NCBI RefSeq assembly: GCF_015209595.1
Contig: NZ_JADEYS010000002.1
Location: 186,001-250,000, forward strand
DNA: 64,000 nucleotides
Reading direction: 5' to 3'
DNA from: Pontibacterium sinense
GTDB taxonomy: Bacteria; Pseudomonadota; Gammaproteobacteria; Pseudomonadales; Balneatricaceae
This document shows positions 3,367 through 8,175 of this stretch, piece after piece. Each line of letters opens with the position of its first letter. Position 1 is the stretch's first letter. Below the pieces are notes generated by a model, which was not told where the DNA came from, made no database searches, and saw nothing but the letters and a program-made list of their open reading frames with translations. The position numbers and the translations under genes were made by a program.

Positions 3367-3589
3367 ATGCAGGGCCTGTTTGGATATAAGAGGGGCTTTA
3401 AATTCAATTGGTTAAGTATAATTAGTCGAACTGATGTGAACTATAGGCATATATGCAATTTAACTTTTCAGATTTGGAAACATTCACGAAGATCGCTCAT
3501 TTCATACAGACCTGACGGATATCATGTTTGCGGTTGCCCAGATATGGTTTCATGAGCGCCTCATGTGACTGTTTTGGCTGTAGAGAGCG

Positions 3590-3886
3590 TTGACCGTGAA
3601 ACCAGATACCCCAACTGCAATGCGTAAATTGATTGACGAAGTACGAGATGCAATGCCATTCGAGATGCCTGTCGATCAGATGTGTAGTGGAATTTGTACC
3701 GGTTGTGCAAAGAAACTACTCGATTTTCTTGCTATACAGCTGGAAGAGTGGGAGATGCGGATCGATCAGGGAGAGGTGCCTAACCTGGGGGAACTCGATC
3801 AGTTAGGCAAAACCTGTCGTAAAGTGTATCGGGTGCTTGAGAAAAATGGTCTGGTTGGGGTTGATGTGGTCGCTCAGGCTAGCTGA
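3590..3886 (+). CDS. Small conserved-looking protein with Cys cluster, unknown
   Basis: I do not recognise this 98-residue protein. It has a CSGICTGCAKK cluster (Cys spacing CxxxCxxC) near residue 32 that could bind a metal or cluster, plus a lone Cys near 75, and is otherwise helical and charged. The frame can open at TTG 3590 (AGAGAG close upstream), GTG 3596 or ATG 3620; 3590 is kept because of the purine-rich stretch in front. Its last 13 bases overlap the 3' end of the convergent rhombosortase gene. Confidence 0.6.
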   Translation: MTVKPDTPTAMRKLIDEVRDAMPFEMPVDQMCSGICTGCAKKLLDFLAIQLEEWEMRIDQGEVPNLGELDQLGKTCRKVYRVLEKNGLVGVDVVAQAS

Positions 3887-4509
3887 TGAGCGTTAAGTGT
3901 GGGGGGTTTCTTTAGCCGAACACACAGATAAACGAATAGCCCTCCAATAACGCCCGCGGCGTGTGATTCAGGATATGCCTGCCAATCGGTGTTCACCAAT
4001 AGGGTTTGTGTCCGAAGAAGCTCCCATAACAACTTAGTGGCGCATACCAGCATCGGTAGCCACCCAATGAGTCCACTGGTTCCTCGCTGGTAGATGATGA
4101 CTGCGAGTGTAAGGGGCGTAAAGAGCATGCCCGAGAGTCCGCAGTAGTAGCTCAAATCTGATAGCGGAGACAGCAGTAACAGGTTGACGCTGACCATACC
4201 CAACAACCATGCAGGAACAACTAAGTCGGGTTGTTTCCTTTCTAGATAAGCAGATACCGCTGCGAAGGTAATTACGTCCCAGAACAGGTGTGACGTATTG
4301 CTATGCACCAGATGGCTGGTTATCAGGCGCCACCATTCGCCGTTATGAACAATAGCCACGCGATCAAAGCAGAATTGCCCCAAATCTAGAGCTGCGAATA
4401 ACAGGACTGTAATCGAGGCGATCAGCGTGCGTAAGGGCCACCGGAACCGCCAGAAGGCGGCTCCATGGTGTACTGGTGGAAGTGACATCTGGTTACGCAT
4501 TTGCATCAT
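3874..4509 (-). CDS. rrtA: Rhombosortase (rhomboid-family GlyGly-CTERM processing protease)
   Basis: A 211-residue multi-spanning membrane protein of the rhomboid serine protease family, matching the shorter rhombosortase subgroup in size. The catalytic Ser lies in YCGLSGMLFTP (about residue 127) and the His in YPESHAAGVIGG (about 184); HLVHSNTSHLFWD is the usual early motif. Rhombosortases cleave the C-terminal GlyGly-CTERM anchor of exported proteins. Possible starts are ATG at 4509, 4506, 4500 and 4488; the upstream VIT/VWA gene stops at 4493, so translation is probably coupled through the overlap. That upstream product carries a fitting C-terminal anchor. Confidence 0.85.
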   Translation of the reverse strand: MMQMRNQMSLPPVHHGAAFWRFRWPLRTLIASITVLLFAALDLGQFCFDRVAIVHNGEWWRLITSHLVHSNTSHLFWDVITFAAVSAYLERKQPDLVVPAWLLGMVSVNLLLLSPLSDLSYYCGLSGMLFTPLTLAVIIYQRGTSGLIGWLPMLVCATKLLWELLRTQTLLVNTDWQAYPESHAAGVIGGLFVYLCVRLKKPPTLNAHQLA

Positions 4510-6589
4510 CCGGATGTGAACGCAGGTACAGCGTGGATGCTATGAGGACGAGTAAGATCAGAATCATCCACGGGTCTACTGCGCCACCACCCGAGCGTCC
4601 ACCTACTGTCGCCCGCTGTTTATCGAACATTGGCTGTGCTTTGTCAGCTCTGCGCTGAGTGATCGGTGCTTGCACGCGTTGCTCACGTGCCTGACGTTCT
4701 ACCGCAACACGCTGTGCATTGGTTCGGTCGATGCCCAGTGCTTTAAAACGATCCTCTTCCAACACAACCATCGACGTATAGTCGGTGACTAATCCGTGAT
4801 CTGTGGCGATGGAGGTAATTGCTTGTTTGCTGTCGCTGTCTGCACCGAGATAATCTATTTTAGCCTGGAGATTTTCGATGGTGGCATAGGCCCATAGGCG
4901 TTCCAACTCGGGGTTCAGCAATGACTGGTCAGGCAGCTGAATTTCTGTGGTATATGTCCGGCTCTCATGACCAATATCACCCGTTAGTGTGACTTTGACC
5001 GGTCCGGCTTTGCGGTAATGCCCTAACACTGTGAGCTGCTGCCCTCTATAAAGGCTACCAATTTGCTCCGGGGTCAGGTCGGCAATACGTCCCCCGTCGA
5101 AGTTGATGCTAATGTTCCGCAGCGCCTGATGACTCATTTTGTCGGCTGCCAGCATGATTTGGCCCATGATGTCGTCGGCATTTGACACCGACAGAGAAAA
5201 GCCTTGGGACACTTTGGTCATTTCGTTTAATAGGGGGCGGTTGGCACTGTTCCCCATGACAAAGGTATAGAGCCTAAGGTCTGCGGCTTTCAGCAGTTTC
5301 AGAAATGCGTTTTTTTCGGTTACACCGACATTGGCAACGCCATCGGTGACCAGCACCATCGCTGTGGCGCGGTCGCTATCCATCTTACGCAAACCCATTT
5401 TCATTCCCGCATAGAGGTTTGTTCCGCGACTGGGTTGGTATTGGTCGAGTTTATCCAGCATTGGGGTAATGCGTTCTGGCGTCGCGGGCAAGAAGCCACC
5501 GCTGAAATCGTGGGCGGAGTCATTGAACAGAACGATGCGGAATCGGTCGTTCGGACTGAGCTGCGCCAGCCCCTGCCGTATGCCTTCGGTCAGAGCTGAA
5601 TATTTACCGGCCATCGACCCTGATACGTCCAGAACGAAGATCCAATCACGTCCACTCTTTAGGGGAGACAGGTCATCACCGGGGGTCAGCGTCAACATAA
5701 AGGTGCCTGCTGCCTGACTGTCTTTTTTGTAGGTCGTCATTTCAAGGCTACCCGGCAACGCGTCGGTATGGCGCCAATACAGTAGAAGGTCTTTATCCAG
5801 TTGGGCGGCAGGTGTGCTTGGTGGTGTATTGTTTACCTGCGGCGTTTGAGCGCTTCTATCATCATCGGTTGATGGGCTGCGGGTATTTCCACTGTGTGCA
5901 GCACTGAGTAATTCGACATTCCAGTTGTATGCGTCTGAATGTGTGATATTAGCAGAGGGCTGGTGGGGCATACGAAGACCGTCAATCGGGTAGCTGTTAC
6001 GCAGATGTACGTTAAAACTGAACTGTTTCTGGACTTGTTCGTTGCGGTTCCAGAATGCCTGTTTCGCTTCATCAACACCGCCGTCCTCCAACGGATACAC
6101 GTAGCGTCCGACACCACTGTCGACGTGGGTGGGTTGTACATACACTAGGCGTACACGTACGTCGGTGTGTGGCTGGATAGCCGCTACACTGATATCGAAC
6201 GTTTTGTAGCTGTCCTTCTCTACAATGGCGACATTGTGTCCGGCTTGTTTTTCCTCACGATAAATTTCACGTGCTTTCTGCTTTTTAACGACCTCTCCCG
6301 TGACGGGCTTACCGTTTATCCAATAGGTGAACTCGCCTACGGCCGCTTTATCAGGTACGGGAAAGGAATAGATGGCATCCAAGGGTTGAGTATTAGGGTT
6401 GCTAAAGACCTGTTCGACTTGGGTGACGGCGTAACCATCCTGAATGATGACATCAACGTCATGCTGTTGAATCAAAAGGTCAGGCAAAGTGCCGTTTGCA
6501 GGCTTGAGCGATCCGGCGGCATGCGTTGAAGCTGAGGCTAATAAAGCGGCGGACAAACTGAATTGGCAAATGGAACGAAGCAGAGACAT
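4493..6589 (-). CDS. VIT/VWA-domain surface protein with GlyGly-CTERM-like tail
   Basis: Start set at ATG 6589 because it has GAGGG eight bases upstream and opens a signal peptide (MSLLRSICQFSLSAALL then cleavage near AQ/HAAG), giving 698 residues. A VIT (inter-alpha-trypsin) domain fills about 40-160 and a von Willebrand A domain about 310-480, with the metal-site motif FVLDVSGSMAGK. The tail reads GGRSGGGAVDPW, then a hydrophobic helix, then YLRSHPDD. This architecture matches the 'marine proteobacterial sortase target' family (TIGR03788), but no LPxTG-type motif is visible; the Gly-rich tail and the overlapping rhombosortase gene point to rhombosortase processing instead. Confidence 0.85.
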   Translation of the reverse strand: MSLLRSICQFSLSAALLASASTHAAGSLKPANGTLPDLLIQQHDVDVIIQDGYAVTQVEQVFSNPNTQPLDAIYSFPVPDKAAVGEFTYWINGKPVTGEVVKKQKAREIYREEKQAGHNVAIVEKDSYKTFDISVAAIQPHTDVRVRLVYVQPTHVDSGVGRYVYPLEDGGVDEAKQAFWNRNEQVQKQFSFNVHLRNSYPIDGLRMPHQPSANITHSDAYNWNVELLSAAHSGNTRSPSTDDDRSAQTPQVNNTPPSTPAAQLDKDLLLYWRHTDALPGSLEMTTYKKDSQAAGTFMLTLTPGDDLSPLKSGRDWIFVLDVSGSMAGKYSALTEGIRQGLAQLSPNDRFRIVLFNDSAHDFSGGFLPATPERITPMLDKLDQYQPSRGTNLYAGMKMGLRKMDSDRATAMVLVTDGVANVGVTEKNAFLKLLKAADLRLYTFVMGNSANRPLLNEMTKVSQGFSLSVSNADDIMGQIMLAADKMSHQALRNISINFDGGRIADLTPEQIGSLYRGQQLTVLGHYRKAGPVKVTLTGDIGHESRTYTTEIQLPDQSLLNPELERLWAYATIENLQAKIDYLGADSDSKQAITSIATDHGLVTDYTSMVVLEEDRFKALGIDRTNAQRVAVERQAREQRVQAPITQRRADKAQPMFDKQRATVGGRSGGGAVDPWMILILLVLIASTLYLRSHPDDANA

Positions 6590-6718
6590 AGAAATTACCC
6601 TCGTGATGAATATAAGGGCAGTGTCACCATCGTTGCTGGGGTGATACAGAAAACGCGTTAAAGTATTAATGTTCACGACCTGAAGTTGCAGAATGCGACA
6701 CTTCAGATCCGGCTCGGT

Positions 6719-7453
6719 TTATTTCTTACGGTAGTTATTGAATAGGCTGTACTGCCATTGTCGCAAAGCCAGAACCATTGTTGTGCCTTTACGGTCGGTC
6801 AGCGGCAGCTGGGCATCCCGTTTCATGATGGCGTTAAAATCATGTGCGAGCGTTTGCATTTTTCGTTGCAGTTCAGCATTGGCGGCAGGGGAGAGTACCG
6901 CATTGAGGACGAGAAGTTTTTCGTTCTGCTTGTCGAATCGGGAACGGAAGAAATCCTGTTCAACTTTCTCTTGGAAAAACTTCTGGATGGGACCGTTGGG
7001 CAACCAGTTAAAGTTGGGTGAGACCAGCAGGCGGATACGGTTACCCGGAAGCAGTTCGATTAATTTTAGGCGATCTAGCTTCGCCAACTTCTGGACACAT
7101 TCAGGTTCACCAACGTCGTACTGCTTCAGTAGATCGTCGAAGGAAAAACCGTTAATTACACTTACCGCGATCAATAACAATACGACATCTTCAGCGACCT
7201 CCTTTTCCTGTTCGAGGGTGAGCTGGGTAAGCGTTTGTTGCTGCTGGGCCATCTTTTCAATCAGATCGGTAAACGTAATTCCGATCGAATCACAAATCAT
7301 CTCCAGTCGATGTAGAGAGAAGTTGTTCTCGGAAAATAAACGCTTAACGGACGCTTCACTGAGTTGTAGGTCTCGTGCGATATCGGCGTAGGTTTTACCG
7401 CTGGCTTTTAGTTGTTGTTTTAGTGTTCCAACGAGTGCTGAGGTCTGCAGCAT
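6719..7453 (-). CDS. XRE-family helix-turn-helix regulator
   Basis: 244 residues. The N-terminal 65 residues form an XRE/Cro-type helix-turn-helix (KTYADIARDLQLSEASVKRL), followed by a long helical ligand or oligomerisation domain without a motif I recognise. This architecture is common in gammaproteobacteria, where it often sits next to unrelated genes; targets cannot be deduced. It is upstream of the VIT/VWA gene on the same strand, about 130 bases away, with an inverted repeat at 6680-6706 in the gap, so cotranscription is possible but not shown. Confidence 0.8.
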   Translation of the reverse strand: MLQTSALVGTLKQQLKASGKTYADIARDLQLSEASVKRLFSENNFSLHRLEMICDSIGITFTDLIEKMAQQQQTLTQLTLEQEKEVAEDVVLLLIAVSVINGFSFDDLLKQYDVGEPECVQKLAKLDRLKLIELLPGNRIRLLVSPNFNWLPNGPIQKFFQEKVEQDFFRSRFDKQNEKLLVLNAVLSPAANAELQRKMQTLAHDFNAIMKRDAQLPLTDRKGTTMVLALRQWQYSLFNNYRKK

Positions 7454-7929
7454 GGTCGTTCCTTGTCATGAGAATGGAGAACGGTTTTCTAATTTGCTCA
7501 GTATAACCATAGTGTTACAGGAGTAAAAAAACAGAGCTCCAATATAATTTATACCGTTATCTTATTTGATAAAGGGTTCATTCCAGGTACAAAAAAACGT
7601 AGTCAGGGCAGCAGGAGAGGCGGGCGGGCTTGATATATATCAAACAAATGTTTGAACGATCGTTTTAATCAGGTTATGTTAAGAAAAATCACATTGAAAC
7701 AAATGCTTAACAGAGTAGCGTTAGCATTCCACGAAATGCATAGCTGGGTTAAATCGGTAGTTTAAATTGCTCCTGCCCCCCAGTTGACGTTGTTAATGTG
7801 GCGAAGGTTAGACCAACGTCTATATTCTTGAATGATTTCAAGTGTTGAAGTTTTTTTAGTTATATAGATATTATCTAACGGATGTTTGAATTGAGCGATT
7901 TAATTGATCAGATCAGTAAGGAAAGTGAG
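7454..7929. promoter_or_regulatory. AT-rich intergenic region with two adjacent palindromes
   Basis: No gene is seen in this 476-base divergent gap. It contains TCAAACA-AA-TGTTTGA at 7640-7655 directly abutted by AACGATCGTT at 7655-7664. The first resembles the CAAAC-N4-GTTTG pattern I associate with the fatty-acid responsive repressor PsrA; the second is a typical TetR-like palindrome. Either could control the small membrane protein at 7930 or the XRE regulator; assignment to any regulator is a guess. Confidence 0.45.
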
Positions 7930-8175
7930 ATGGCTAAACAATCCGCATTGAAATTTAAACAACTCTTTGCACTGGTAGTAGCTTCTGCATTTGCTGCAGC
8001 GGCTGTGTTCATGGGTGTATCAATGTATGTTGACCTCAACGCAGATGGAACTGCAACAACGGCAATGGTTGTGTTTAAGGCTGTAAGCGTTGTTGTCTCA
8101 ATTCTTTTCAGTGTAGCGAATGCCAAGATGGCAATGCTTGCACGCGAAGAACGTATGAACGTACAGACCGCCTGA
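7930..8175 (+). CDS. Small two-helix membrane protein, unknown
   Basis: Start ATG 7930 is preferred over the in-frame ATG 7882 because TAAGGAAAGTGAG lies just in front. The 81-residue product starts MAKQSALKFKQ, has two hydrophobic helices (about 10-30 and 45-68, the first rich in Ala) separated by a short polar loop, and a charged C-terminus (AREERMN). I do not recognise the family. It is monocistronic, ends just before a GGA-rich structured region, and is terminated by the strong hairpin at 8311-8360. Confidence 0.6.
   Translation: MAKQSALKFKQLFALVVASAFAAAAVFMGVSMYVDLNADGTATTAMVVFKAVSVVVSILFSVANAKMAMLAREERMNVQTA

Follow-up and report, generated by a model that had tools for sequence, protein, structure and literature searches.

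A VIT/VWA protein gene and its adjacent rhombosortase gene in Pontibacterium sinense: a probable one-enzyme, one-substrate module

Background

Proteins of the VIT/VWA family are known with more than one kind of sorting tail, and examples ending in GlyGly-CTERM, PEP-CTERM or LPXTG signals were aligned by Haft & Varghese (2011, PMC3237569, Fig 3C). The same paper lists adjacent pairs in which a rhombosortase has a single target, Neptuniibacter caesariensis among them (Table 3), and reports that virtually all rhombosortases carry a His four residues past the active Ser (SGxLH). As a general idea, the pairing of a VIT/VWA protein with a rhombosortase is already found there and is not new. The best experimental model is RssP/VesB of Vibrio cholerae, in which the rhombosortase cleaves its substrate and exposes a Gly, glycerophosphoethanolamine is attached and the protein is then exported by the type II secretion system (T2SS) (PMC6219818; PMC13393428). 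In a further arrangement, the proteobacterial sortase (TIGR03784)/TIGR03788 cassette, the gene of a dedicated sorting enzyme directly follows that of a VIT/VWA target.

Here we describe a locus of Pontibacterium sinense lying in a stretch of 64,000 nucleotides (the window; positions 186,001 to 250,000 of contig NZ_JADEYS010000002.1), for which an earlier note had proposed a dedicated rhombosortase system with swapped sorting machinery. Like the dedicated pairs of 2011, it places one rhombosortase next to one tail-bearing target, but its tail falls below the TIGR03501 (GlyGly-CTERM) model and its protease has Phe for the hallmark His. With RssP/VesB it shares a rhombosortase and a GG-tail substrate, whereas in V. 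cholerae the GG-tail proteins number six, VesB itself being a protease; the window locus has one linked VIT/VWA substrate. The gene order is that of the sortase cassette, which differs in its sortase, its LPxTG-like tail and an identity of only ~25% between the VIT/VWA proteins. The features of the locus are as follows.

3874-4509, minus strand: rhombosortase, 211 aa (TIGR03902, 99.3 bits against an NCBIfam cut-off of 84)
4493-6589, minus strand: VIT/VWA protein gene, 698 aa, likely start ATG at 6589
4496-4603, minus strand: GlyGly-CTERM-like tail GGRSGGGAVDPW, hydrophobic helix 671-689 and a short, weakly basic end
6515-6589, minus strand: N-terminal hydrophobic segment MSLLRSICQFSLSAALLASASTHAA, read directly from the sequence (predicted helix 2-18)
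6719-7453, minus strand: HTH protein (Cro/C1-type, PF13443, HTH_26 37.2 bits), 244 aa, encoded upstream of the VIT/VWA protein

Results and discussion

The VIT/VWA protein and its tail

The VIT/VWA and rhomboid reading frames of the earlier note were recovered with identical coordinates, and the overlap it had described between the two genes amounts to 17 nt; an upstream GTG at 6676 would lengthen the VIT/VWA frame. Pfam searches place a VIT domain at residues 40-150 (114 bits) and a VWA_3 domain at residues 317-465 (46 bits), and the MIDAS residues D321, S323, S325, T390 and D416 are invariant among orthologues. The hydrophobic segment formerly called a signal peptide is present at the N-terminus, and it is a probable Sec signal peptide. 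The AlphaFold model is fair (pLDDT 79.8) and resembles inter-alpha-inhibitor heavy chain 1 (6fpy; E 1e-39, TM 0.59/0.67) along the whole chain, VIT and VWA domains included, although the latter is an animal plasma protein with 18% identity that does not carry a bacterial-type tail. The protein had been likened to the marine proteobacterial sortase targets of TIGR03788; it scores 234.3 bits against an NCBIfam cut-off of 551.65 and is not a member of that equivalog.

The tail GGRSGGGAVDPW starts at residue 663, and residues 671-689 form the strongest hydrophobic stretch in the whole protein. The extreme C-terminus, LYLRSHPDDANA, has a single Arg and an acidic end. From the layout of a GlyGly-CTERM signal, the Gly motif and the transmembrane helix are seen together with a weak basic cluster that runs into acidic residues; the Gly run and helix described in the earlier note stand, while its Arg tail is weak. 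No LPxTG motif occurs in the protein, as that note had said. A search with TIGR03501 left the window tail unmatched on its own, whereas at E <= 10 the model matched 22 of 41 aligned homologous tails, and because of these matches we regard the window tail as a divergent GlyGly-CTERM. The same matches tie the window protein, by tail homology, to accepted GlyGly-CTERM members, the way in which members were curated in 2011.

The adjacent rhombosortase and its branch

The score of the downstream protease, above the TIGR03902 cut-off, identifies it as a rhombosortase, and the rhomboid motifs attributed to it earlier are present (GLSG at 124-127 and SHAAG at 182-186; Pfam Rhomboid, 38 bits). The catalytic residues Ser126 and His183 are invariant across 26 sequences. 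Its AlphaFold model is good (pLDDT 89.6) and shows the rhomboid fold; comparison with GlpG structures gives a match probability of 1.00 and TM of about 0.5-0.6. The protease reads SGMLF, with Phe130 at the position where canonical rhombosortases carry His.

This departure is common to its relatives. The SGxLH His was found in none of 49 enzymes encoded beside a VIT/VWA gene (linked enzymes) as against 21 of 28 unlinked ones (Fisher p about 1e-13, with one gene counted twice and relatedness ignored); the linked enzymes have Asn (23, that of L083 by inspection), Phe (14), Tyr (10) or Cys (2) instead. The linked rhomboid at L083:5653-6249 has GLSA rather than GLSG at its active site. A tree built without four long-branch rows groups all 48 VIT-linked enzymes in a single clade (support 97/97); in a first tree that included these rows, one long-branch unlinked row was placed among them. 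The VIT-linked rhombosortases are a distinct branch, apart from the general enzymes that serve many substrates.

A difference is also seen in the substrates. Immediately past the Gly run, 47 of 49 linked proteins have Ala, as do 14 of 31 unlinked ones; the remainder have Ser (17 of 31 among the unlinked). The association with linkage has p 2.8e-7 from raw counts, and phylogenetically independent pairs give a borderline trend (median p 0.06), with no pair reversed. Co-evolution of enzyme and substrate, in which loss of the His would go with Ala after the Gly run, is at this stage a lead, not a result. The fuller proposal, that a separate enzyme branch has altered its specificity, that the change of His to Asn, Phe, Tyr or Cys and of Ser to Ala marks a co-evolved private pair, and that some lineages work without any T2SS, is in our estimate plausible, with a little less than an even chance of being right. 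Among open-licence PubMed Central papers, none was found that describes a His-less rhombosortase clade or the Ala/Ser pattern.

Conservation of the gene pair among relatives

In a first survey of 57 related genomes, an orthologue with at least 52% identity was present in 11 genomes (that of the window counted), and a rhombosortase lay immediately downstream in 10 of these. A species-level survey found 232 relatives, from which 80 loci were retained for analysis; they span Oceanospirillaceae, Thiodiazotropha symbionts, Halieaceae, Microbulbifer, Psychromonas and others. Among these orthologous loci from other genomes, 48 of 80 have the VIT/VWA gene and an adjacent protease gene in the same order, which excludes a chance pairing; at two of the loci counted as having no adjacent protease (L043 and L097) the contig ends inside the VIT gene, and others may be cut short too. 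Gene pairing, domains, the separate clade, catalytic-residue conservation and the association of tail and enzyme were all obtained by computation.

The history of the pair can be read in two ways. On the VIT tree the linkage state changes at least 10 times, and most of the unlinked genomes checked hold a higher-scoring rhombosortase (120-166 bits) elsewhere, mostly of the His type. Both observations would suit an account in which a general rhombosortase usually handles the VIT substrate and the dedicated enzyme next to it was gained later and more than once. Against this, the linked enzymes all fall in one clade and the VIT gene precedes the protease gene at every linked locus; we consider repeated acquisition unlikely. 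One old pairing followed by repeated loss is the simplest reading and fits better, and repeated horizontal transfer of the pair as a unit is possible. Within Thiodiazotropha, some genomes have a linked Asn-type enzyme together with an unlinked His-type one (L047, L056) and others the His-type alone (L048, L055), a difference that reflects the dedicated enzyme having been lost or gained recently. Of the linked genomes checked, only G089, G091 and G100 have another plausible TIGR03501 protein, and all three have an additional His-type rhombosortase; the other matches over the cut-off fall by position within or at the VIT gene (G096, G101, G105) or, in G099, within a frame of 36 aa.

A homologue of the HTH protein adjoins the VIT gene in 46 of the 80 loci, at many of them with no linked protease, and the HTH protein probably regulates the VIT gene or the module. 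At two sortase-linked loci, L019 and L022, response-regulator-like genes are found nearby instead of an HTH homologue.

Sortase-linked paralogues

The earlier note held that the sorting machinery of a VIT/VWA protein had been swapped at this locus, that is, that a protein of TIGR03788 type lost its sortase and gained a rhombosortase and a new tail. The shared domain architecture and the differing tails on related VIT/VWA proteins in the 2011 alignment (PMC3237569) speak for such a change. The neighbour survey that the note had called for gave another picture: in the 57 genomes the distant VIT/VWA proteins (23-28% identity) each adjoin a sortase-like gene, while the rhombosortase-linked proteins are orthologues, and the two kinds, about 25% identical, form separate sets among the relatives surveyed. 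Both are present in Motiliproteus coralliicola (L017, L027), and in a Pseudohongiella MAG (L066) a sortase-linked and a rhombosortase-linked cassette neighbour each other on opposite strands, at 3424-5565 (minus) and 5938-8055 (plus). Further, the window protein misses the TIGR03788 cut-off by more than 300 bits, and across the 80 loci all rhombosortase-type members with a complete C-terminus have a Gly-rich tail. Since paralogues of such low identity coexist, swapped machinery is not supported, and we rate it as very improbable. The two kinds of cassette are parallel paralogous systems.

Sorting enzymes and tails elsewhere in the genome

Genome-wide profile searches of the organism's own genome found a single rhombosortase over the cut-off, together with one GlpG-like rhomboid (TIGR03902 57 bits, below the cut-off of 84), no sortase domain over the cut-off and no second credible GlyGly tail. 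Weak matches at L147-L150 were rejected as further GG-tail proteins, being internal to unrelated proteins, and those at L151 and L152 as chance matches near the C-terminus that have no Gly-Gly motif; L151 was also rejected as a lost VIT tail, the surrounding 10-kb region having no VIT remnant. Similarly, the only rhombosortase over the cut-off in the Neptuniibacter caesariensis genome adjoins the orthologous VIT/VWA gene, and this is presumably the pair listed in Table 3 of PMC3237569. With one rhombosortase, no sortase over the cut-off and no other credible GG tail, the idea of a dedicated one-substrate system, already advanced in the earlier note, is supported, as is the view that the VIT/VWA protein is the sole credible rhombosortase substrate in this genome.

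Proposed processing and export

We judge it probable that the locus is a dedicated one-enzyme, one-substrate rhombosortase module in which the enzyme most likely trims and anchors the tail of the VIT/VWA protein. The points that count against it are the tail, which misses TIGR03501 and is weakly basic, and the enzyme, which does not have the hallmark His. In such a module, the VIT/VWA protein would be exported by Sec, its C-terminal helix keeping it in the inner membrane until the neighbouring rhombosortase cleaves inside the Gly run or directly past it (SGGG/AVDPW) and frees it from the helix. By analogy with RssP/VesB, the exposed Gly may be joined to a glycerophosphoethanolamine moiety ahead of T2SS export, and the same chemistry is likely for the VIT/VWA protein. 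Cleavage, lipid attachment, surface location and HTH regulation at this locus are what we infer from comparison.

A T2SS is encoded in the organism's own genome, where GspD (503 bits) and GspE (682 bits) both exceed their cut-offs and gspC, gspL, gspK and gspH genes are also present. Two large predicted proteins adjoin T2SS genes there (L154, contig C10, 4889-8131 and 8644-11175, minus strand); both match bacterial Ig-like (Big_3_5) domains, although only one of them exceeds the Pfam cut-off and the other falls below it, and they are possible T2SS substrates. In N. caesariensis and two Neptunomonas isolate genomes the pair is present, yet searches for GspD gave no match and those for GspE none above the cut-off; therefore surface export through the T2SS is not general, and T2SS export is not obligatory for persistence of the pair. 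The genomes of L040, L059 and L087 hold the VIT/rhombosortase pair, with GspD not found and no GspE over the cut-off. The idea that the pair goes with a missing T2SS was considered and dropped: GspD was lacking from 4 of 20 linked genomes, one of them a MAG that may be incomplete, and from 0 of 18 unlinked ones, a difference that is not significant (Fisher p 0.11).

Rhomboids can serve as sheddases. The enzyme might thus destroy or shed the VIT/VWA protein, as quality control or signalled release, with no anchoring; this would agree with the T2SS being missing from some pair-bearing genomes and with the release of VesB through GlpG processing when the rhombosortase is absent (PMC13393428). The layout of the tail is nevertheless that of a sorting signal, with a short length past the helix, and the enzyme scores above the threshold of the rhombosortase model, so that shedding seems to us an improbable role and trimming by a dedicated rhombosortase is preferred.

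Conclusions

Beyond the work of 2011, the present analysis adds the His-less clade of VIT-linked rhombosortases, the Ala/Ser pattern in the tails and the conserved HTH neighbour. VIT/VWA proteins are a rare case of one fold routed via at least two unrelated C-terminal sorting enzymes, three according to the 2011 paper (PMC3237569). Pairs residing in T2SS-less genomes would show whether rhombosortase processing pays without surface export. If the clade is a specificity class, it would offer natural types of enzyme (His versus Asn, Phe, Tyr or Cys) and of tail (Ser versus Ala), and such natural pairs could reveal how rhombosortases recognise their substrates, a question standing since the prediction of 2011.
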